DNA of 32,600 bases from Clostridiales bacterium. GTDB lineage: Bacteria; Bacillota; Clostridia; Christensenellales; Aristaeellaceae. How positions within the stretch are numbered: position 1 is the stretch's first letter; the number at the start of each line of letters is the position of its first letter. Both the position numbers and the translations under genes were made by a program. The stretch covers positions 1-32,600 of the forward strand of contig SVGN01000030.1 in the NCBI GenBank assembly GCA_015056315.1, given 5' to 3'. A model generated the notes under the pieces. The model ran no database searches. It was not told the DNA's origin and saw nothing but the letters and a program-made list of their open reading frames with translations. Positions 22,370 through 32,015 of the stretch are shown here, piece by piece.

Positions 22370-25057
22370 TTACGCCAGCCCCGCATTGATATCCAGGATC
22401 TCCTGCCGCACATCGGCAGCGATCTCGCTCACCGGATCCAGCACCGGGCGGCCGGTGTAGAAGCCCTGGATCAGATCCACGCCCATCTCGATGAGGGTGC
22501 GCAGCTCCTTGTAGGTCTCTACGCCCTCGGCCAGCACGGTCATGCCGTTGTGGCGGGCAAAATCGATGGTGCTGCGCACGAACAGCTGCTTGTTGGTATC
22601 GTTGTGGATGTTGCTGATCAGGTAATGGTCTATCTTGATGATCTGGGGCGCATAGCGCATCAGGTTGACGATGTTGGAGTGGCCCACGCCGTAATCGTCC
22701 AGGGCAAGGATGCTGCCGCAGCCCTGCACGCACAGGCTGCGGATGGTCTCCAGCTCTTCGTTGGAGACGGTGTTCTCCTCCGTCAGCTCAAAGACCACGC
22801 GGCCCAGATGCTCGCCGTAGCAGGCAAAGAGCTTGTCCGCATCCTCCTTGCGCAGAAAATAGCCCGGTATGGTGTTGATGAACAGCTTCCGGTCGCCGAA
22901 GCTCTCCCGCTCGGTGGCAAAGCGCTCCAGAATGTTGAACAGGGTGTACTTCTCCACATCGTAGAGGCGGTTGTACTGGCGGGCGGCCTCCAGCACCTGG
23001 GGCGGCGACATGCCGATGCGCCGGTCGGTGCGCATCAGGGCCTCGTAGGCCAGCACGGTACCGTCCTTGGCGCTTACGATGGGCTGGAAGTGGTAGTGGA
23101 ACATGTTCTTGTCCATCAGCATACGGAAGGCAGCATAGTAGGCGTTGGGCTCGCTGGCGGCCTTGTCGGCCACGCCCTGCCCGGCCTTGAGCCGGTTGCG
23201 GAACAGCTCCTCGTTGGCGGCGCGCAGATAGCTCTCCAGCGTGCCGCTCCAGCCGCCGCTGACCACCGTGCACCCGCAGTTTACCTCCACATAGTACTCC
23301 AGCCCGCTGCGGCTGTTGTAGCTCTCGATCATGCTGTAGAAAACAGCGGTGGCATTGTTGATGGTATCGCCGATGTCGTTGCCGTCTATGTAATGGTGGA
23401 TGATGGCAAAGCTGTCCTCCGTTACGTGGGCAATGAAGCAGCGCAGGGGGTTGGCCAGGCGCAGGGCCTCGGCGGTCACCCGCAGGGCCTCCTCGCCCGC
23501 CTCTATGCCGTAGTTCTCTACGATGTAGCTGTACTTGGGCAGACTGTAGACCGATACGGTAAGCGATTTGTAGTGGTTGTTCTCCTTGGCGGCAAAGCCC
23601 TCGAACCAGTCCACCGCCCCCTTCAGGTTGGGCAGCCCGGTGACCGGGTTGGTGGTGGCCGCCCGGCGGATGCGCAGGTTCATGTTGGCCTGGCGGAAGT
23701 GGTTCACCGCAGAGCTCATGGCAATGTTCACCGCCGAGGAAATGCGCTTGATCTTATCGGCATTGCCGGGCAGGTCGTCGGTGCAGATGGCGTAGTAGCC
23801 GCAGGCCAGTTTGCCCGCATGCACCGGGGTGATGACGCAGCAGGTATCCTCCTTCAGCCACTCGTCCAGGTGGGGCACCATATCCGCAAGGCTCATGCGG
23901 CCGGGCCGGTCGCCGTGGGTGGGGTGGTAGCTGGAGGAGATCACCGTCATTTCGCCGGAGAAGGGCTCATCCTCCTTGCGGGTGGCCTCCAGCGCATCGG
24001 CCACAAAGCTGCTGTTGAGGCATACGTGGGAATTGCCGATGATGCACAGCGAAAGGCTCTTGTAGAGCTTCTTCATATCGGTAATGCCCTGCATGTGGTC
24101 TATGCAGGAGTAGATAAAATCCTCGTGGCTCTGCATGCTGTCCAGCACCGTATGCAGGCGGAAGGCGGCACGGTCGTCCATGGGGGCATGGGCGGCGCAC
24201 CCGCAGGATTCGGAGAACCGGGGCTCGTGGGGGTAGGTGAGGGCGCGGGGCGCTTCGCCGTCGATGGCGGCAAGGGCGGCCTTGATGGTGGCGGAGACCA
24301 GCGCACCGATATCCTCCCAGCAGGTAGTAAGGCGGGGGGAGAAGGAGTCGATGGCAGGCACACCGTCAAACCCGGTAACGATCACATCCCGGGGGATGTG
24401 GTAGCCCTGCAGCTGCAGCTCGGTGCAAACGCCGAAGGCCATACTGTCGTTGGCGCAGAAAATAGCCCGGGGCGGCCTTGTGCCCTTGGCCAGCAGCCCC
24501 CGCACACAGCGGCGGGCGGGCTCGTTCCAGTAGTCGCCGTAGGCTACCATCTCCGGCACGAAGGGGATGCCGTTCTCTGCCAGCACCTCCCGGAAGCAGG
24601 CGATGCGCTTCTCCGATTCCTCATCGCCCCGCTTGCCTGCCAGATAGAACACATCCCGCACCTCGTGGGTACGGATCACATGGTTCAGCAGGGCGCAGTA
24701 GGCATCGTGGTAGTCCGGCTGCACGCTCCAGCAGCCCTCGGCCTGCCCTTTGACCAGGATCACCGGCACCCCCTGCTCCTTGGCACGGGCGATGATCCCT
24801 TCGGGCACGGCAGGGTCGCAGAAGGCATCGGCCAGGATCACCACCGCATCGATCACCGAAAGGTTCATTACCCGGTAGACCGAGGCAGCGCCCTCATCCT
24901 GCTCGTTGTGGTTGAAAAAATCCACAAAGGTATTCAAAATAAGGAGCTTGCAGCCCCTGCGCTGCGCCATGCGGCTCAGGCGGTGGCAGAACTCCAGGTG
25001 GCTGGGGGTGTGCATTTTGGTGGTGCAAAGGGCGATCACCTTTTTGCCGCTCAGCAT
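22370..25057 (-). CDS. LacI-type ligand-binding, degenerate GGDEF and EAL domain protein
   Basis: The 895-residue cytoplasmic protein has no signal peptide and no membrane helix. Residues about 5-290 resemble the ligand-binding part of LacI/GalR regulators and periplasmic sugar-binding proteins (FYLAGKRGDEESEKRI, AIFCANDSMAFGV, IVTGFDGVPAID) without the DNA-binding helix-turn-helix. A poorly characterised region (290-460) is followed by a GGDEF-like domain (about 465-620), starting TNPVTGLPNL but with VTEDSF in place of GGDEF, so it should not make c-di-GMP. The EAL domain (640-880) keeps Glu672 in YEALMR, Asn728, Glu757, Asp787-Asp788, Lys808 and Glu844 in LAEGVET, so c-di-GMP hydrolysis is plausible. 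Start at 25057 has GGGAGGG upstream. A sugar-like ligand may control phosphodiesterase activity; this is inference. Confidence 0.9.
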   Translation of the reverse strand: MLSGKKVIALCTTKMHTPSHLEFCHRLSRMAQRRGCKLLILNTFVDFFNHNEQDEGAASVYRVMNLSVIDAVVILADAFCDPAVPEGIIARAKEQGVPVILVKGQAEGCWSVQPDYHDAYCALLNHVIRTHEVRDVFYLAGKRGDEESEKRIACFREVLAENGIPFVPEMVAYGDYWNEPARRCVRGLLAKGTRPPRAIFCANDSMAFGVCTELQLQGYHIPRDVIVTGFDGVPAIDSFSPRLTTCWEDIGALVSATIKAALAAIDGEAPRALTYPHEPRFSESCGCAAHAPMDDRAAFRLHTVLDSMQSHEDFIYSCIDHMQGITDMKKLYKSLSLCIIGNSHVCLNSSFVADALEATRKEDEPFSGEMTVISSSYHPTHGDRPGRMSLADMVPHLDEWLKEDTCCVITPVHAGKLACGYYAICTDDLPGNADKIKRISSAVNIAMSSAVNHFRQANMNLRIRRAATTNPVTGLPNLKGAVDWFEGFAAKENNHYKSLTVSVYSLPKYSYIVENYGIEAGEEALRVTAEALRLANPLRCFIAHVTEDSFAIIHHYIDGNDIGDTINNATAVFYSMIESYNSRSGLEYYVEVNCGCTVVSGGWSGTLESYLRAANEELFRNRLKAGQGVADKAASEPNAYYAAFRMLMDKNMFHYHFQPIVSAKDGTVLAYEALMRTDRRIGMSPPQVLEAARQYNRLYDVEKYTLFNILERFATERESFGDRKLFINTIPGYFLRKEDADKLFACYGEHLGRVVFELTEENTVSNEELETIRSLCVQGCGSILALDDYGVGHSNIVNLMRYAPQIIKIDHYLISNIHNDTNKQLFVRSTIDFARHNGMTVLAEGVETYKELRTLIEMGVDLIQGFYTGRPVLDPVSEIAADVRQEILDINAGLA

Positions 25058-25150: not shown

Positions 25151-25180
25151 TTGACGAAGCGGTTTTTCCGGTGCTACAAT
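25151..25180 (+). promoter_or_regulatory. Sigma-A promoter of the cobalamin riboswitch operon
   Basis: TTGACG (25151-25156), 18 bases, TACAAT (25175-25180). Transcription would begin near 25187, just before the riboswitch. Confidence 0.8.
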
Positions 25181-25194
25181 ACCCATGACAAATG

Positions 25195-25400
25195 CATAGG
25201 GAAATACGGTTTGAAAAGTTGTATGCTGAGTAGATGAAAAGGGAATCCGGTTCGAATCCGGAACAACCGCCATTACTGTATTTGACCATGGGAGGCGCAG
25301 CATGCCATTGGAGCCACGGCTCCGAGAAGGCGCGCAGCCCGCCCGGAGCGTTCCGGGCAGGTCATAAGTCAGGAGAACTGCCGTGCTTCCGTCAGGTGAA
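25195..25400 (+). promoter_or_regulatory. Cobalamin (adenosylcobalamin-type) riboswitch
   Basis: The aptamer core is visible in order: AAAAGGGAATCCGGTTCGAATCCGG (first part at 25237-25261, a stem with a GTTCGAAT loop), the ACCGCCATTACTGTA segment (25266-25280), a variable stem-loop domain, and the B12 box AAGTCAGGAGAACTGCC (25366-25382), which matches the consensus closely. It lies on the plus strand directly after a promoter and controls the ECF transporter operon. The 220 bases between it and the first gene contain no clear terminator with a U-tract, so the switching mechanism (translation or termination) is open. High cobalamin would be expected to lower expression. Confidence 0.93.
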
Positions 25401-25623
25401 CACGATTTGGTGTGAAGAGTGCAACCGATCCATTGCTGCAAGGCGGCTGCCGGTGCGCTCTTTGGGTGCACTTGGCGGGTGCTTCCCTTTGCGGTACAGA
25501 TCTGTTGCGCTCTTGTAACCATTCCGGTTTGCAGGAGCGTTTGTTTTACAAAGAACACAGAACAGGAAGGGGCCGGTGGCAGGCGGCGCTTTTCCCGTGC
25601 CGGAGAAGGGAGGGCGGATCTCA

Positions 25624-25857
25624 GTGACGCAGGAAGAAAAACGGGCGTGGGCGGCCAACCAGCTCCGGGCACGGCATGCGCAGCTGGGTACGCTGCCCCG
25701 CAAGGAGGATTTCGACGAGGTGACCCGTTCCCGCATCAAGGCGTTTTTAGGCCCCTGGCCCAGAGCGCTGGAGGCGGCGGGCCTCAAGGAGCCCCCACCG
25801 GCGCAGAAGCCCAAACGCCGTGCCGCCCGAAAAAACACCAACCCAAAGGAGAAGTGA
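25624..25857 (+). CDS. Small basic protein with a homing-endonuclease-associated (HNH) repeat
   Basis: The 77-residue product carries one repeat of the PF18780 type, a DNA-binding helical motif: LGTLPRKEDFDEVTRSRIKAF, followed by LGPWPRALEAAGL. A Lys/Arg-rich tail (KPKRRAARKNTNPKEK) follows. There is no nuclease domain. The GTG at 25624 is preceded by GGGAGGG; another GTG at 25576 with AGGAAGG is possible. It is the first gene after the cobalamin riboswitch and ends five bases before the next start, so it is co-transcribed with the transporter. A DNA-binding regulator is a guess; the frame is short, but the repeat match makes it likely real. Confidence 0.65.
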   Translation: MTQEEKRAWAANQLRARHAQLGTLPRKEDFDEVTRSRIKAFLGPWPRALEAAGLKEPPPAQKPKRRAARKNTNPKEK

Positions 25858-25862
25858 TCCCC

Positions 25863-26561
25863 ATGAAAAAGACCCTGTTGGTTGCCCTGCTGCTGTGTGT
25901 ATGCCTCGTTTCCTCTGCCCTGGGCGAGGCTGCTGCCCCCACCGCCGACCCGGTGGTGTACGTATCCGTCAACGATGGGCAGGGCGCGTTGGCGCTGGCC
26001 GCTGAGCCCATCACCGTTACCGATACTGATCTGGATGGCGCGCTCACCATCCACGATGCCCTCACCTGCGCCCATGCGGCTGCCTTCCCCGAGGGGGCGG
26101 AGGGCTATCTGGCAGCGGAGAGCGAGTTCGGCCTCTCCCTGCTCAAGCTGTGGGGCGTGGAGAACGGCGGCAGCTGCGGCTACTACCTGAACGATGCCTC
26201 TGCCTGGAGCCTGCTGGATCCCATCAAGGAGGGCGACCATGTAAAGGCCTTCAACTATACCGACCTGACCGGCTTTACCGATACCTACTGCTACTTCGAT
26301 GCCCTGCTCCTTGAGACCGCCGCAGGCACCGAAGTGACCCTCACCCTGACCGCTGCCGCCTTTGATGAGAACTGGATGCCCATCGCTGTGCCCGTGGCCG
26401 GTGCCACGCTGATCGTTGGCGGCGAGCCCACCGCCCTGGTCACCGATGCGGAGGGCAAGGCAGTGCTCACCTTTGAAGCCCCCGGCACCTACCTGATCAC
26501 CGCCGACAGCGCAGAGATGAATCTGGTGGATCCTGTGTGTGTGATCACCGTTGTGGAATGA
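25863..26561 (+). CDS. Secreted DUF4430-like (transcobalamin beta-domain-like) protein
   Basis: The 232-residue product has a Sec signal (MKKTLLVALLLC, cleavage probably near ALG-EA). Residues about 30-150 resemble DUF4430: an initial strand VVYVSVNDG, a segment with HDALTCAHAAAFPEG, then GGSCGYYLNDASAW and a DPIKEGDHVKAFNYTD end, where DUF4430 normally has a WMY-VNG motif and a GD-I-W ending. Residues about 155-232 look like a small Ig-like domain (PVAGATLIVGG, TDAEGKAVLTFEAPGTYLITAD). No sortase signal, lipobox or C-terminal anchor is seen. AAAGGAG precedes the ATG. It is the second gene under the riboswitch and probably binds cobalamin or helps the next protein do so; this is inferred from domain and context. 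Confidence 0.75.
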   Translation: MKKTLLVALLLCVCLVSSALGEAAAPTADPVVYVSVNDGQGALALAAEPITVTDTDLDGALTIHDALTCAHAAAFPEGAEGYLAAESEFGLSLLKLWGVENGGSCGYYLNDASAWSLLDPIKEGDHVKAFNYTDLTGFTDTYCYFDALLLETAAGTEVTLTLTAAAFDENWMPIAVPVAGATLIVGGEPTALVTDAEGKAVLTFEAPGTYLITADSAEMNLVDPVCVITVVE

Positions 26562-26643
26562 ACACTGCTGCGGCACAGCTCCGGCTGTGCTGCACTTCCC
26601 CTCCGGGGGCGTATGCCCCGAATACCATGATGGGAGCCTGACC

Positions 26644-28401
26644 ATGAAAACAAGAACGATCGCCCTCCTCGTTGCCCTGCTGCTTTGGCTGACCTGTGCG
26701 CTGCCCGCCTGCGCAGCCCCTGCTGCCGACCCTGCCGCACAGGTGGAGGCGCACATCAGCGCCATCCTCCGGGGGCAGATGGCCCGGGGCGGCGCAGACA
26801 GCCTGCAAGCATGGATCGATACCGCCCTGACCGATTCCGTCGGGCTGGGGGGCGAGTGGTATGTGCTGGGCCTTGGGCAGCTGCCGGGCTTTGAGGGCGA
26901 TCTGTCCACCCCGCTGGCTGCGCTGGAGGCAGCCCTTGCCCAAAGCAGCCTGTCGCTCACCACCCGGCAGAAGCTGGCGCTGTGCCTGCTGGCGGCAGGG
27001 GGCGATGCGGCGCTGGCGGCCCCCGCTGCGGAGGCCGCCGGGCAACAGGGCATCATGACCCGGATCTTCGGCCTGCACCTGCTGAATAACGGCTGCACCG
27101 CCGGGGCGCAGACCCGGGAGAGTGCGGTCGGGCAGCTGCTCTCCATGCAGCTGGAGGATGGCGGCTGGGCCCTGATGGGCAAGAACGCCGACGTGGATGT
27201 GACCGCCATGGCCCTGCAGGCGCTGGCTCCCCATACCGGCGACCCTGCTGTGCAGGAGGCCGTGCAGCGGGCGCTCATGCTGCTCTCTGCCCGCCAGCAG
27301 CCGGATGGTGGCTTCATCGGCATGGGCGTTGCCAACCCGGAGAGCGCCGCCCAGGTGCTTACGGCGCTGTGCGGGCTGGGCATCGATCCCGCGCAGGATG
27401 AACGCTTTGTGAAGAACGGCTGCACCATCATGGACAGCTTTGCGCCCTACGCCCTGCCGGAGGGCGGCTGGAGCCACACCGCCGGTGGCGGCCCCAATGC
27501 CACCGCCGCCGTGCAGATCTTTCTGGCCTGCACCGCCTACAGCCGCTTTTTGCAGGGGCTGCCGGGGCTGTACCTGATCGAGAGGACGGGCGCTGCCGGG
27601 GCTGCCGGTGTGCCCGGTGCGGCTGGCGATAGCACCGCCGATGCAGCGGATGCGCCCGTTTCGGTTGGCGACATCGTTCCCGCTGCCGCCGATGGGAACG
27701 GCGATCCCGCCGCCACCGATACCCCCACCACGGCTACCGATGACGATATGGGCGATCCCGCCGCCAGCCCCGCCGCCCCCTCGCTGGGCATCATCGGCGG
27801 GGCAGATGGCCCCACTGTGATCCTCGTCTCCGGAGGCTGGAAGCTCTGGGCCACCGCCGGCATTGCCGGAGCGGCGCTTCTGTGGTGCATCGGGCTGCTG
27901 ATCCGGCGCAAGCGCAGCCCCAGCAGCTACCTTGCGGCGCTGCTGGTGGCCGCTGCCGCCATCCTGCTGCTCTGGGTGACCGATGTGCAGAGCCCCGAGA
28001 GCTACTACCGCCGGCAGGAGCTGCCCGGCGGCGAGCCCATCGGCACCGTAACGCTGGAGATCCGCTGCGATACGCTGCCTGCGGGCACCGAGAATGTGCC
28101 TGCGGACGGTCAACTGCTGCCCCCCACCCGCTGCCCCATCCTGGCAGGGGATACGGTGTATGATGTGCTCATCCGGGCGGCCCGGGAGCATCATATCCAA
28201 TTGGATGCCAGGGGCGGCCCGGGCATGATGTACCTGGCGGGCATCCAGTACCTATACGAGCAGGCTCACGGCGAGCTTTCCGGCTGGATGTACTTTGTCA
28301 ACGGCGCATCCGCCTCCCAGAGCTGCGATTGCCTCCCCCTTGCGGATGGCGACAGCATCCTCTGGGCATACACCTGCGAAATGGGTGCAGACCTGAACTG
28401 A
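26644..28401 (+). CDS. Membrane-anchored transcobalamin-like protein: alpha6/alpha6 repeats plus DUF4430
   Basis: The 585-residue protein has a signal peptide (LPACAA, possibly a lipobox at Cys23). An alpha-helical repeat domain covers about 30-310, with prenyltransferase/squalene-cyclase-like repeats (EDGGWALMGKNADVDVTAMALQAL, PDGGFIGMGVANPESAAQVL, PEGGWSHTAGGGPNATAAVQ). An Ala/Asp/Pro/Thr linker (315-380) follows, then a GIIGGADGPT motif and two transmembrane helices (about 400-420 and 429-446) with RRKR between them. The C-terminal DUF4430 domain (465-585) has GWMYFVNG and GDSILWAYTCEMG. The topology places both folded domains outside. Animal transcobalamin and intrinsic factor have the same alpha6/alpha6 plus DUF4430-like plan and hold B12 between the domains. 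The start at 26644 has GGGAG upstream. It lies 82 bases after the DUF4430-like gene and 31 bases before ecfT. Binding of B12 is inference from plan and riboswitch. Confidence 0.85.
   Translation: MKTRTIALLVALLLWLTCALPACAAPAADPAAQVEAHISAILRGQMARGGADSLQAWIDTALTDSVGLGGEWYVLGLGQLPGFEGDLSTPLAALEAALAQSSLSLTTRQKLALCLLAAGGDAALAAPAAEAAGQQGIMTRIFGLHLLNNGCTAGAQTRESAVGQLLSMQLEDGGWALMGKNADVDVTAMALQALAPHTGDPAVQEAVQRALMLLSARQQPDGGFIGMGVANPESAAQVLTALCGLGIDPAQDERFVKNGCTIMDSFAPYALPEGGWSHTAGGGPNATAAVQIFLACTAYSRFLQGLPGLYLIERTGAAGAAGVPGAAGDSTADAADAPVSVGDIVPAAADGNGDPAATDTPTTATDDDMGDPAASPAAPSLGIIGGADGPTVILVSGGWKLWATAGIAGAALLWCIGLLIRRKRSPSSYLAALLVAAAAILLLWVTDVQSPESYYRRQELPGGEPIGTVTLEIRCDTLPAGTENVPADGQLLPPTRCPILAGDTVYDVLIRAAREHHIQLDARGGPGMMYLAGIQYLYEQAHGELSGWMYFVNGASASQSCDCLPLADGDSILWAYTCEMGADLN
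27784..27834 (+). other. OadB-like GIIGGADGPT motif preceding the membrane helices
   Basis: Residues 381-397 of the transcobalamin-like protein read LGIIGGADGPTVILVSG. This closely resembles the membrane motif of the beta subunits of sodium-pumping decarboxylases (OadB/GcdB), yet no other part of that family is present. It sits directly before the first of two transmembrane helices. Its function here is unknown. Confidence 0.6.
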
Positions 28402-28432
28402 TCCATCCCCTGCAGCAAAGGAGGGAAACCCC

Positions 28433-29305
28433 GTGCGGCGCTTCGAAGACCGGAACCCCATCGCCGTTGCCGTGTATCTGCTGGCAGCGGCGGGCGTTGC
28501 CATGCTTACGATGGATCCGGTACTGCTCTGCCTTTCGCTGGCGGGGGCGCTGCTCTCCCTGGGGGCCACGGGCGGCTTCGGCCCCCTGCGCTCTCACGGG
28601 TGGGCGGCTGTGCTCTTTCTGCTCACCGCGCTGATCAACCCGCTCACCTACCACAATGGGCGCACCGTGCTGCTGGTGGTGAACGATGCCCCCATCACGC
28701 TGGAGGCGGTGCTCTACGGCATGGCCGCCGGGGGCATGATCGTGGCGGTGCTGTACTGGTTCCGTATCTTCAGCCGCATCATGACCGGCGATAAGCTGCT
28801 TTACCTTCTGGGCGGGCTGAGCCCGGGGCTTTCGCTGGTGGTCTCCATGGCGCTGCGGTATGTGCCCCTGTTCGGCAGGCAATGGCGCAGGGTGCAGGCT
28901 ACCCAGCGGGCGCTGGGCCTCTACCGGGAGGATGACCCTGTGGCGGCGCTCCGGGGCAGGCTCAGGGTCTTTTCGGTCATGACCACCTGGGCGCTGGAGA
29001 ACGGCGTCATCACTGCCGACAGCATGGCGGCCCGGGGCTACGGCCTTGGGCGGCGCACCCACTTTGCCCGCTTCCGCTTCACCCTGGGGGATGGGCTGCT
29101 GACGGCGGCGAGCCTTGCGCTGGCGGGGCTCTCGCTGTGGGGCGCAGCCGGGCGGGGCGTGAGCTATTACCCGGCGTTTGCGATGGGCGCACTCACCCCC
29201 CGTGGGCTGGCGGGTTATCTGGCCTACGGCGTGCTGGTGCTCCTGCCCGCATTACTCAACATCAAGGAGGCGATGGTATGGCACTGCTTCAACTCCGGCA
29301 GGTGA
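28433..29305 (+). CDS. ECF transporter T component (EcfT/CbiQ family)
   Basis: The 290-residue membrane protein is the energy-coupling scaffold of an ECF importer. It has five to six hydrophobic helices. The cytoplasmic coupling helix contains SMAARGYG with the Ala200-Arg201-Gly202 motif that contacts the ATPase grooves, followed by RRTHF. The long amphipathic stretch from about 120 to 200 (YWFRIFSRIMTGDKLLYLLGG, SMALRYVPLFGRQWRRVQ) is typical of CbiQ-like proteins. Start is GTG at 28433 with AAAGGAGGG upstream. Its 3' end overlaps the start of the ATPase gene by 28 bases, so their translation is coupled. Confidence 0.92.
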   Translation: MRRFEDRNPIAVAVYLLAAAGVAMLTMDPVLLCLSLAGALLSLGATGGFGPLRSHGWAAVLFLLTALINPLTYHNGRTVLLVVNDAPITLEAVLYGMAAGGMIVAVLYWFRIFSRIMTGDKLLYLLGGLSPGLSLVVSMALRYVPLFGRQWRRVQATQRALGLYREDDPVAALRGRLRVFSVMTTWALENGVITADSMAARGYGLGRRTHFARFRFTLGDGLLTAASLALAGLSLWGAAGRGVSYYPAFAMGALTPRGLAGYLAYGVLVLLPALLNIKEAMVWHCFNSGR

Positions 29306-31332
29306 GCTTCACCTACCCCGGCGCACAGGCCCCTGCTGTGCATCAGGTCTCCTTTTCGGTGGAGAAAGGCGAGCTGGTGGCCATCTGCGGCGCTACCGGC
29401 AGCGGCAAATCCACGCTGCTCAGGCTACTCAAGCGGGAGCTGACCCCCATGGGGCAGCGGGAGGGCACCATCCTGCTGGATGGGGTGCCGCTGGAGCAGC
29501 TGCCGCCCCGCACCGCCGCTTTCTCCGTGGGCTATGTGATGCAGCGCCCCGATGAGCAGATCGTGACCGATAAGGTGTGGCACGAGCTGGCTTTCGGTCT
29601 GGAGAACATGGGGCTTGGCCAGAGCGATATCGCCCGCCGGGTGGCGGAAACAGCGGCCTATTTCGGCATCGAGGGCTGGTACGAGAAGCCGGTGGATCAG
29701 CTCAGCGGCGGGCAGAAGCAGCTGCTGAACCTGGCGGCGGTCATGGCCATGCAGCCCAGCCTGCTGATCCTGGATGAACCCACCGCCCAGCTGGATCCCA
29801 TCGCAGCGGCGGATTTCATTGCCACCGTGCACCGGCTCAACCGGGAGCTGGGCCTGACCGTACTGGTGATCGAGCACCGGCTGGAGGAGCTGATGCCCCT
29901 GTGCGACAAGCTGCTGGCGCTGGAGGCGGGCCGTCTGCTGGTCTGCGATGCCCCGGCCCGGGCAGCGGCTGCGCTGCGCAGCCACCCCTGCCTGCTGGAT
30001 GCCATGCCCGCTGCGGTGCGGCTGTACCATGCGCTGGGCGGGGCGGGGGAGTGCCCCCTCAGCATCGCTCAGGGGCGGCGCTTCGTGGAGGAGCGTCTCC
30101 GGGAGATGGCTGCGCCTGGGCGTGCGGAGGCTGCCCCCGGAGCCGCTGTCGGCGCTTGCGGGAGCGGGGCTGCATTGCCTGCTGCCGGTAACGGTCATGT
30201 GGATCATGCTGCCGGTACCGGCCACATTACACCGGGTGCAGCGGGCGGTACCGGTGATGCGGAGCATGCTGCCGGGCATACGGCTGCGTGCGCGGGGGTC
30301 GCCCCGTCTGCATGGGCGGGCTGTGCGCCCGCAGCTGCGAAGGCTGCCCACCGGCAGCTGCCGGTGGCGGCGGGCCGCCCCGGGCATTCGTCCCGGGAGG
30401 GCGCCGGGGAGCCGCCTGCGCTCAGGCTGCATCAGGTGTATTTCCGCTACGAGCGGAGCGGGCAGGATGTGCTCCGGGGCACCGATCTTACCCTGCGGCA
30501 GGGAGAGATCCTGTGCCTGCTGGGCGGCAACGGCTCCGGCAAGAGCACGCTGCTGAGCCTTGCGGCGGGGCTGAACCGGGCCCAGCACGGGCAGGTGCAG
30601 GTCTTCGGCAAACGGATCTCCGCCTACCGGGACCAGAGCCTGTACCGGGAGTGCGTTGCCCTTTTGCCGCAGGATGTGCAGACCGTCTTTCTCTGCGATA
30701 CGGTGCGGGAGGAGCTGCAAAAGGCCGGGGCGGACATTACCGCTTTGCCCTTCGACCTGACCCATCTCATGGACAGGCACCCCTACGACCTGTCCGGCGG
30801 CGAGCAGCAGCTGGTGGCGCTGGCCCGGGTGCTGGCGCTGAAGCCCCGCCTGTTATTGATGGATGAGCCTGCCAAGGGGCTGGACGCCCATGCCCGCAAG
30901 CAGTTTGCCGCCGTTTTGAAGCAGCTGAAGGCGGCGGGGGTCGCCTTGTTGATCGTGACCCATGATGTGGCCTTCGCCGCCCGGTGCGCCGACCGCTGCG
31001 TGCTGCTGTTCCGGGGTGAGGCGGTCTCGGAGGGCGAGGCCCGCAGCTTCTTCAGCGAGAACCTGTTCTATTCCACCGCCATCAGCCGCATGACCCGGGG
31101 CCTGTTGCCCGGAGCCGTTACCGTGGAGGATGCGGCAATCCTGCTGGGTGGGGAGGTGGCGGGTATGGCTCCGCTGGCTGCCGCTGGCGAGGATGGTGCA
31201 GCGGGCACGGCTCCGCAGGCTGCCGGTGGGGAGGATGATGCAGCGGGCGCGGCTCCGCAGGCTGCCCCTGGGGAGGATGGTGCGGCGGGCACGGCTCCGC
31301 AGCCCGCTCCTGCAAAGGAGGCGGCGGTATGA
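29278..31332 (+). CDS. Fused double ECF ATPase (EcfA-EcfA')
   Basis: The 684-residue protein joins two ABC ATPase domains that are usually separate subunits. Domain 1 (1-270): Walker A GATGSGKST (38-46), signature LSGGQ (142-146), Walker B LLILDE with Glu167, switch His200. Domain 2 (383-610): Walker A GGNGSGKST (416-424), signature LSGGE (505-509), Walker B LLLMDE with Glu530, His562. Both sites look competent. Between them is a low-complexity linker of about 100 residues (280-382) rich in Ala, Gly and His. The C-terminus ends in three 14-residue repeats (APQAA-GGEDDAAGA type). Start at 29278 has AAGGAGG; an earlier frame to 29137 is not supported. It powers the import of the S-component ligand. 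Confidence 0.93.
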   Translation: MALLQLRQVSFTYPGAQAPAVHQVSFSVEKGELVAICGATGSGKSTLLRLLKRELTPMGQREGTILLDGVPLEQLPPRTAAFSVGYVMQRPDEQIVTDKVWHELAFGLENMGLGQSDIARRVAETAAYFGIEGWYEKPVDQLSGGQKQLLNLAAVMAMQPSLLILDEPTAQLDPIAAADFIATVHRLNRELGLTVLVIEHRLEELMPLCDKLLALEAGRLLVCDAPARAAAALRSHPCLLDAMPAAVRLYHALGGAGECPLSIAQGRRFVEERLREMAAPGRAEAAPGAAVGACGSGAALPAAGNGHVDHAAGTGHITPGAAGGTGDAEHAAGHTAACAGVAPSAWAGCAPAAAKAAHRQLPVAAGRPGHSSREGAGEPPALRLHQVYFRYERSGQDVLRGTDLTLRQGEILCLLGGNGSGKSTLLSLAAGLNRAQHGQVQVFGKRISAYRDQSLYRECVALLPQDVQTVFLCDTVREELQKAGADITALPFDLTHLMDRHPYDLSGGEQQLVALARVLALKPRLLLMDEPAKGLDAHARKQFAAVLKQLKAAGVALLIVTHDVAFAARCADRCVLLFRGEAVSEGEARSFFSENLFYSTAISRMTRGLLPGAVTVEDAAILLGGEVAGMAPLAAAGEDGAAGTAPQAAGGEDDAAGAAPQAAPGEDGAAGTAPQPAPAKEAAV
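31168..31311 (+). repeat. 42-base tandem repeat in the 3' end of the ATPase gene
   Basis: Three complete 42-base units (31168-31209, 31210-31251, 31252-31293) and a partial fourth, each starting GCTCCG and containing GAGGATG-TG-GCGGGC, encode 14-residue repeats. Copies differ at several positions, so the array is not recent, but slippage would change its length in frame. Confidence 0.9.
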
Positions 31333-32015
31333 TCGTGATCCGAAGCAGCCGCCTGAGGGCATGGCTGCGCTGGCTGATCCCCCTGGTGCTGATCCCGCTG
31401 CTGGTGCTGCTGGGGGCGCTGGTGTTTCCCGAAAAGCGGTACCTGCTGGTAACGCTGGGCGTGGTGGTGCTTTCGTTGCTGCTGTTCCTCTGCGGCTTTG
31501 AGCGCAGACAGACCGGCTCACGGCGCATGGTGCTGGCAGCGGTGCTGACGGCCCTTTGCATCGCCGGGCGGTTCCTGCCGCTGGTGAAGCCGGTCACCGC
31601 CATCACTGTTCTGGCGGGGATCTATCTGGGCGGCGAGACCGGCTTCCTGGTGGGTGCCCTTGCCGCCGTGCTGAGCAATTTCTATTTTGGTCAGGGCCCG
31701 TGGACGCCCTTCCAGATGCTGGCCTGGGGCATGATCGGCCTTGCGGCGGGCTGGCTTGGCCGCCCCTTGAAGAAGAGCCGTTGGCTCCTGCTGGGCTTCG
31801 GTCTGGCGGCTGCGGTAAGCTATTCTCTCGTGATGGATGTATGGACGGTGCTCTGGTACGACAGCGGCTTCCGCTGGGAGCTGTACCTGAGCGCCCTCAC
31901 GGCAGCGCTGCCCCATACTGCCGTGTATGCGGCGGGAAATGTGCTGTTTCTGTGGCTTTTGGCAGAGCCCGTGGGTAAAAAGCTGGAGCGGGTGCGGGTG
32001 AAGTATGGGCTGTAG
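31329..32015 (+). CDS. ECF transporter S component, probably cobalamin-specific
   Basis: The 228-residue membrane protein has six to seven hydrophobic helices. The core VLTALCIAGRFLPLVKPVTAITVLAGIYLGGETGFLVGALAAVLSNFYFGQGPWTPFQMLAWGMIGLAAGW is the typical ECF substrate-binding layout, quoted here only by its landmarks: AGRF, VKP, GFLVGAL, GQGPWTP and MIGLAAGWLG. An extra helix at the N-terminus (17-33) precedes it. Specificity for cobalamin is inferred from the riboswitch and the transcobalamin-like partner, not from residues. ATG overlaps the ATPase stop codon as ATGA, which couples translation. It is the last gene of the operon; no clear terminator follows. Confidence 0.85.
   Translation: MIVIRSSRLRAWLRWLIPLVLIPLLVLLGALVFPEKRYLLVTLGVVVLSLLLFLCGFERRQTGSRRMVLAAVLTALCIAGRFLPLVKPVTAITVLAGIYLGGETGFLVGALAAVLSNFYFGQGPWTPFQMLAWGMIGLAAGWLGRPLKKSRWLLLGFGLAAAVSYSLVMDVWTVLWYDSGFRWELYLSALTAALPHTAVYAAGNVLFLWLLAEPVGKKLERVRVKYGL

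Follow-up and report, generated by a model that had tools for sequence, protein, structure and literature searches.

We analysed a locus in a 32,600-nucleotide (nt) stretch of DNA, called the window here, from a Clostridiales bacterium of the family Aristaeellaceae (contig SVGN01000030.1 of the 3.09-Mb, 80% complete assembly GCA_015056315.1). In it a cobalamin riboswitch precedes genes for two exported proteins and an energy-coupling factor (ECF) transporter, and the second exported protein, of 585 amino acids (aa), carries an alpha/alpha toroid (alpha6) domain followed by a DUF4430 domain, which raises the question of a likeness to the vitamin B12 carriers of animals. The locus occupies 25151-32015 entirely on the + strand and runs from a promoter-like site and the riboswitch through a small open reading frame (ORF) of family PF18780 and the two exported proteins to the ECF components T, A-A and S, whose reading frames overlap (28433-29305, 29278-31332, and 31329-32015). 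The features are as follows.

25151..25180, + strand: promoter-like site TTGACG-18-TACAAT, a consensus match only
25190..25399, + strand: cobalamin riboswitch aptamer, RF00174 (81.8 bits, E 6.6e-19)
25624..25857, + strand: small ORF, PF18780 (HNH_repeat), 77 aa from a GTG at 25624 (start picked by eye)
25863..26561, + strand: exported protein P0001, 232 aa, with a signal peptide, a weak DUF4430-like region, and a possible Ig-like or carboxypeptidase-regulatory-like domain
26644..28401, + strand: membrane-tethered protein P0002, 585 aa, with signal segment, alpha6 toroid, linker, two transmembrane helices, and DUF4430 (translation, Pfam, hydropathy)
26839..27573, + strand: alpha/alpha toroid domain of P0002, residues about 66-310 (region of profile matches; family profile to squalene-hopene cyclase, E 2.9e-18)
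27847..27987, + strand: membrane hairpin of P0002, helices 402-420 and 430-448 with a basic loop (hydropathy)
28147..28374, + strand: DUF4430 domain of P0002, transcobalamin beta-like, residues 502-577 (PF14478, 51.6 bits; family profile to haptocorrin/transcobalamin beta)
28433..29305, + strand: ECF transmembrane component T (CbiQ 12.9 bits, sub-threshold; homologous T at the same place in relatives)
29278..31332, + strand: fused double ECF ATPase A-A (two PF00005 stretches; TIGR04520, 319.9 bits vs 315)
31329..32015, + strand: ECF substrate component S, a CbrT homologue (PF12822, 38.3 bits; 6fnp_A)

The riboswitch match spans the whole RF00174 model (positions 1-189) and, at 81.8 bits, clears the gathering score of 31.5. 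No second RF00174 match was found in this 80% complete genome, and the promoter-like site lies immediately 5' of the riboswitch. With all genes on the + strand behind it, the proposal of an earlier, sequence-only reading of the window that a cobalamin riboswitch heads one co-directional gene set is confirmed. Riboswitches of this family allow expression of their operon when cobalamin is scarce in the cell. Relatives of the alpha6 domain were gathered by scanning genome contigs with a six-sequence set; 569 of 584 candidate stretches encoded relatives, and the best 80 loci, many of them with rumen or gut titles and including cultured Ruminococcus flavefaciens strains, were analysed. A riboswitch model (R1) derived from 21 of the 80 gave 62 matches at E<=1 over 1.08 Mb scanned, one in each of 62 loci and all on the + strand, seven of them at E 0.01-0.07. 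Of these matches, 60 stop short of the first gene recognised, by 672 nt at most, and those in L133 and L141 run into its called start; for 5 kb upstream, that strand carries no gene recognised as part of the set. Many riboswitches of the relative loci are of the compact adenosylcobalamin (AdoCbl)-II type. In 18 relative loci scanned with Rfam itself, ten had a match at gathering score (eight RF00174, two AdoCbl-II), and one of the others had a sub-threshold AdoCbl-II match. A strict regular expression had made the riboswitch look rare (3 of 80 loci), which proved to be an artefact, as Rfam and R1 found cobalamin riboswitches in most loci; a second, looser expression matched in 44 of the 71 relative loci having at least 600 nt upstream.

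A complete ECF transporter (T, fused double A, S) had likewise been proposed, and all three components hold up. The ATPase has two ABC_tran (PF00005) stretches and passes the TIGR04520 cut-off (319.9 bits vs 315), the S component passes that of PF12822 (38.3 bits), and the T component, whose CbiQ score of 12.9 bits is below the Pfam cut-off, is assigned from relatives and position. Searched against the PDB, the S sequence matched 6fnp_A (E 1.1e-10; next match 0.056), and a 25-row profile of S matched it at E 3.1e-19, the only other match at E<=1 being 4hzu_S (3.8e-5). Passages of PMC5997447 describe 6FNP as ECF-CbrT of Lactobacillus delbrueckii, a transporter of cobalamin and cobinamide. The homology of S to CbrT gives the substrate class, and the operon almost certainly encodes a cobamide ECF importer. 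It differs from ECF-CbrT in that CbrT shares its ECF motor, whereas here dedicated T, A-A, and S components stand under one riboswitch and are joined to a protein of alpha6, two transmembrane helices, and DUF4430. The two halves of the ATPase are joined by a long linker rich in Ala, Gly, and His, and its C-terminus is repetitive and Ala-rich.

The cargo could in principle be another cobalamin-related compound (cobinamide, cobyrinate diamide, a lower base, or another corrinoid) in place of intact cobamides. CbrT binds and transports cobinamide too (PMC5997447, in the passages cited above), a review lists cbrUVT with 'cobyrinate diamide uptake' (in the portion of PMC8123684 concerned), and a cobalamin riboswitch senses the end product, not the form transported. 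We nevertheless regard this as improbable, because CbiD and CobS had no match in five of five genomes, this one included (completeness 80% for this genome and 95, 86, 97, and 97% for the others), so that the usual route would not be available for completing such precursors. The same result points to dependence on imported cobamides, and, judged from its genome, the bacterium appears unable to make vitamin B12. Its genome also encodes two B12-binding domains and, elsewhere, one strong FecCD gene. BtuCDF, an ABC-driven B12 importer with an extracytoplasmic binder, resembles the present system in that respect and differs from it in not being of the ECF type.

Linkage between these elements extends well beyond the window. 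Among 200 genomes of the order, PF14478 (DUF4430) occurs in 62 (81 places) and RF00174 in 127. Among the 150 RF00174 matches listed, 43 of the 81 DUF4430 places, in 31 genomes, have a same-strand riboswitch 212-6846 nt upstream; in no other arrangement does one of those listed occur within 10 kb of any of the 81. At the level of the phylum, PF14478 was matched in 91 of 299 genomes and a CbrT-like S (E<=1e-8) in 89 of 299; assuming that both scans drew the same 299 genomes, as the listed handles suggest, 83 have DUF4430 and S, 8 DUF4430 only, 6 S only, and 202 neither. This corresponds to an odds ratio of 349 and a Fisher p of 1.5e-56, which, because the genomes are related, is not a fair probability, though the pattern itself counts. 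DUF4430 lies upstream of S within 10 kb on the same strand at 77 of 95 S places (a few being pieces of one gene), a lower bound, and T, A, and S are all present in 64 of the 80 relative loci, several of whose contigs end early. Thus the association with cobalamin riboswitches and ECF genes in other genomes, on which the sequence-only reading had staked its proposal, is strong in the order, the phylum, and the relative loci alike. That riboswitch, DUF4430, and ECF genes adjoin by chance or share only their transcription, the exported proteins being unrelated surface proteins, is scarcely credible given this odds ratio (even among related genomes), the fixed gene order, and the restriction of riboswitch model matches to the operon head.

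How the exported domains are held at the membrane follows from the 585-aa protein itself. A hydropathy scan gave a signal segment (6-24) and exactly two more helices, 402-420 and 430-448, joined by a basic loop (IRRKRSPSS). Because two helices with a basic loop separate them, the alpha6 and DUF4430 domains are both predicted to lie outside the cell, which supports the outward orientation first suggested for them. The 62-sequence alignment, consisting of the window protein and 61 of 70 fused relatives, has 20 invariant positions, including D185, T187, N231, E233, Q237, and H278 in alpha6 and G547 and W548 in DUF4430. Upstream of the hairpin, residues 377-400 (27772-27843, with GIIGGADGPT) resemble the oxaloacetate decarboxylase beta-subunit (PF03977, 17.4 bits, below the cut-off), a stretch kept in L062 and not in L081.

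The DUF4430 half is well defined. PF14478, which we take to correspond to the InterPro entry 'Transcobalamin-like, C-terminal', matches residues 502-577 at 51.6 bits against a cut-off of 23.8; it is the sole such match found in the genome, and the family is matched at E<=1 in all 62 aligned sequences. A profile of 46 bacterial DUF4430 domains (A9) gave nine PDB matches at E<=10: 3u7z (9.3e-9), haptocorrin 4kki (1.7e-4), transcobalamin-2 5no0 (0.0016), three further transcobalamin-2 sequences (0.02) and another (1.6), and two chains with other names, ThiS (0.029) and collagen (0.062). Besides 3u7z, all five matches at E<=0.02 are therefore haptocorrin or transcobalamin-2; a smaller first profile (26 domains) had given transcobalamin-2 at E 0.29 and transcobalamin-1 at E 0.54. 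The transcobalamin matches fall on the C-terminal beta domain, and the single invariant column of the DUF4430 family (W548 here) aligns with a transcobalamin Trp. At the level of profiles, this comparison shows DUF4430 to be homologous to the transcobalamin beta domain, and the C-terminal domain of the animal carriers has already been called a DUF4430 domain in a passage of PMC4350170. Passages of PMC5599065 and PMC11107200 report that the isolated beta domain binds cobalamin and that alpha and beta domains associate only with cobalamin present, and the latter adds that in rat transcobalamin the beta domain binds first and the alpha domain closes afterwards. The backbone of L358 in human transcobalamin holds the cobalamin phosphate (PMC5599065, in the part concerned); by our own count from the printed alignment, this residue is four residues N-terminal to a Tyr aligned with the conserved Y530. 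Ligand binding by the bacterial DUF4430 domain is considered likely. The best-matched structure, 3u7z (RUMGNA_00854), is named 'putative metal binding protein' in the PDB, a name without a cobalamin role, and by homology may itself be a cobamide binder.

The alpha6 half, taken as a single protein, gave squalene-cyclase and prenyltransferase Pfam matches, all sub-threshold. Its 52-row profile gave 33 PDB matches at E<=10, of which squalene-hopene cyclase (2.9e-18) is the best; prenyltransferases and alpha-2-macroglobulin rank below it. By these matches, alpha6 and the transcobalamin alpha domain would agree in type, both being alpha/alpha toroids.

Among the relatives, the two halves occur both fused and split. 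Alpha6 and DUF4430 share one ORF in 70 of the 80 relative loci, and 40 larger order-genome stretches (L062-L101) contain 15 ORFs with alpha6, two fused as in the window and 13 with DUF4430 in a separate ORF, downstream in 12 and upstream in one (L063); in four of the 13, the alpha6 ORF itself also has a DUF4430 stretch on its N-terminal side. A listed RF00174 match accompanies 14 of these 15 alpha6 loci. In several split cases (L067, L069, L075, and L076 among them), a hydrophobic helix closes the alpha6 ORF and another, which could also be a signal peptide, opens the DUF4430 ORF; were both ORFs joined, these end helices would form the hairpin seen in the fused protein. In others, such as L068, L078, and L080, the alpha6 ORF scored no helix at its C-terminus. 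The alpha6-then-DUF4430 order that the sequence-only reading had likened to transcobalamin is indeed the same, but two membrane helices intervene and the halves are separate, adjoining genes in many relatives, as is mostly the case in other families.

Several of these loci depart further from the arrangement in the window. In L138, alpha6 (460 aa) and DUF4430 (162 aa) are separate although the riboswitch is nearly identical to that of L125, suggesting recent fission or an assembly error; in L063, L066, and L071, alpha6 lies inside very large exported ORFs (~2000-2300 aa) with more DUF4430 stretches; and in L154, L163, L156, and L165, T, A-A, and S precede the exported genes, with the riboswitch of L154 and L163 then upstream of T. 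In L067 and L076, the riboswitch and the exported DUF4430 genes are separated by an additional large ORF, which encodes leucine-rich and Listeria-Bacteroides repeats together with a cadherin-like domain. In a Latilactobacillus curvatus plasmid record, an LPXTG protein is followed by DUF4430, T, ATPase, and S; in tblastn, the 585-aa protein aligns across the LPXTG protein and DUF4430, and no cobalamin riboswitch was detected at that locus. DUF4430-S pairs occur in records of Lactiplantibacillus plantarum, Lactobacillus intestinalis, and Enterococcus raffinosus plasmids, and an Enterococcus durans record labels the gene at the DUF4430 position 'cobalamin ECF transporter', the same place elsewhere being labelled DUF4430.

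We consider the best reading of the locus, with a probability of roughly 70%, to be a cobamide importer of the ECF type, supplied by a two-domain clamp that resembles transcobalamin and is tethered to the membrane. Under this reading, low intracellular cobalamin would let the riboswitch permit expression of the operon, and the 585-aa protein, held by its membrane hairpin, would display alpha6 and DUF4430 outside the cell. By analogy to the homologous beta domain of transcobalamin, DUF4430 would bind the cobamide first, and the alpha6 toroid would then shut over it, gripping the ligand between the two domains near the membrane. From the clamp the ligand would go to the S component of CbrT type, and T and the double-ATPase motor would power inward transport. 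Ligand binding, closure of both domains on one ligand, and hand-over to S are what we infer here, and a closing two-domain clamp, as a part of this reading, seems plausible.

Several results weigh against it. Transcobalamin is absent from the 33 PDB matches of the alpha6 profile, where terpene cyclases are best, and direct comparison of alpha6 with the human transcobalamin alpha domain (its sequence letters verified against 2bb5_A) gave an hhalign probability of 0.5% and an hmmsearch score of 0.1 bits. PF01122, which we take to be the family name of that alpha domain, is not listed for P0002, nor is it among the 25 families shown of 109 for the 62 sequences. Homology of alpha6 to the transcobalamin alpha domain was thus not detected by profile search, hhalign, or hmmsearch. 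In the order, 38 of the 81 DUF4430 places have no RF00174 nearby among the riboswitches listed; of ten of these scanned against all Rfam, eight lack a cobalamin riboswitch at gathering score, and the other two have an AdoCbl or AdoCbl-II riboswitch. R1 has no match in 18 of the 80 relative loci; in eight of these the sequence available before the first exported gene is shorter than 600 nt, and in ten it is 600 nt or longer. In the Lactobacillaceae and Enterococcus plasmid records, no alpha6 gene is annotated beside S, only a DUF4430 gene, so that alpha6 seems dispensable for CbrT-type uptake. Finally, the animal carriers free B12 only upon proteolysis (PMC11107200, in the passage concerned), and a clamp giving its ligand to a transporter would therefore have to differ from them.

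In a simpler arrangement, DUF4430 alone would bind the cobamide and feed the CbrT-type transporter, much as the gene pair of Lactobacillus would if a surface domain were added to it, and alpha6 would do something else, such as bind cell wall or protein or serve as a degenerate cyclase-like fold with another ligand. The DUF4430-S pairs of L. plantarum, L. intestinalis, and the E. raffinosus plasmids, which have no annotated alpha6, would fit this, as would the matching of alpha6 to terpene cyclases and not transcobalamin. We consider it unlikely, if worth keeping in view, because alpha6 and DUF4430 are fused or adjoining across many lineages and the polar alpha6 residues among the invariant positions (D185, T187, N231, E233, Q237, H278) are as expected for a putative ligand-binding face.

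How far the two-domain clamp resembles the animal carriers is a separate matter. The domain order of transcobalamin, haptocorrin, and intrinsic factor is shared, as is beta/DUF4430 homology by profile, while the alpha domains have no detectable sequence similarity, the bacterial protein has two helices between its domains and is often two genes, and the animal proteins are soluble. The likeness to transcobalamin that had been proposed for both domains therefore stands for the DUF4430/beta half and found nothing at sequence level for the alpha6 half, and, because alpha6 lacks detectable similarity to the transcobalamin alpha domain, membership of the animal carrier family does not follow. That alpha6-DUF4430 proteins are genuine bacterial equivalents of the B12 carriers of animals, each a cobamide clamp opening at the membrane toward the ECF S component, is a tentative proposal; if true, the split and fused forms would show the origin of the two-domain carrier.

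The transporter half of this system is already known as CbrT/CbrTUV, and a cobalamin ECF lipoprotein is known in annotation; the proposed alpha6-beta clamp is new. A passage of PMC5997447 gives the L. delbrueckii gene order nrdJ-cbrS-cbrT-pduO and cites Rodionov 2009 for the prediction of CbrT; as this order matches nrdJ-DUF4430-S-adenosyltransferase in L. intestinalis, cbrS is probably a DUF4430 gene. The cbrT and cbrV genes of predicted CbrTUV cobalamin ECF transporters are described as common in Ruminococcus in a passage of PMC9306216, and are probably the same transporter part; several relative loci are titled Ruminococcus. K8Q211 is annotated 'Additional lipoprotein component of putative cobalamin ECF transporter' in a table of a proteomics paper (PMC9963975), a passage of which also describes a Lacticaseibacillus rhamnosus DUF4430 protein, called of unknown function and encoded near rtpR, that may be the same protein. 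The passages concerned in PMC9306216 and PMC9963975 mention no alpha6 domain, transcobalamin likeness, or lipoprotein mechanism. Within the passages of the open-licence literature searched, we found no description of bacterial alpha6-DUF4430 proteins as transcobalamin-like, and no paper joining the ECF lipoprotein annotation with the animal DUF4430 domain or describing the alpha6 partner. The locus suggests that bacteria may catch B12 with a grip similar to that of the animal carriers; it offers a testable function for DUF4430, a domain matched in 91 of 299 phylum genomes, and a bacterial protein for comparison with transcobalamin and intrinsic factor. If true, it would provide a gut and rumen route by which bacteria that do not make B12 compete for it.

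The remaining exported protein and the small ORF are less readily placed. The sequence-only reading had seen DUF4430-like domains in both exported proteins, which stands for the second (PF14478, 51.6 bits) and is weakly supported for the first, where Pfam found no DUF4430 (25863-26561) and profile-profile comparison was weak (hhalign of residues 41-134 of P0001, E 0.0014, probability 17.6%; this translation's numbering carries one extra leading residue). A PF13620 match to this protein was sub-threshold (16.3 bits). P0001-like genes occur in 76 of the 80 relative loci by a loose count (a DUFsmall match or a separate DUFc ORF), and the protein probably serves as an additional binder or scaffold at the cell surface.

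Between the riboswitch and the first exported protein lies the PF18780 ORF, absent from the earlier reading, which scores 34.0 bits against a cut-off of 26 when the longer reading from 25576 is taken. Similar small ORFs occur in 23 of the 80 relative loci and 7 of the 40 order loci, with one place in both sets, and the family is matched once per genome in five of five genomes checked. It was found in 11 of the 200 order genomes (12 places): by hand comparison, in eight of these the ORF follows a same-strand cobalamin riboswitch at a distance of 137-555 nt, a ninth (G181) has it between A and S inside a CbrT-type ECF operon, and two (G007, G188) showed no link to a cobalamin riboswitch or ECF operon. 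In this order, the family is thus nearly confined to B12 riboswitch operons, and a role in regulation is a guess. On the other side of the promoter-like site, a divergent 895-aa ORF (22370-25057, - strand) looks by eye like a LacI-type sensor part with GGDEF- and EAL-like domains after it.

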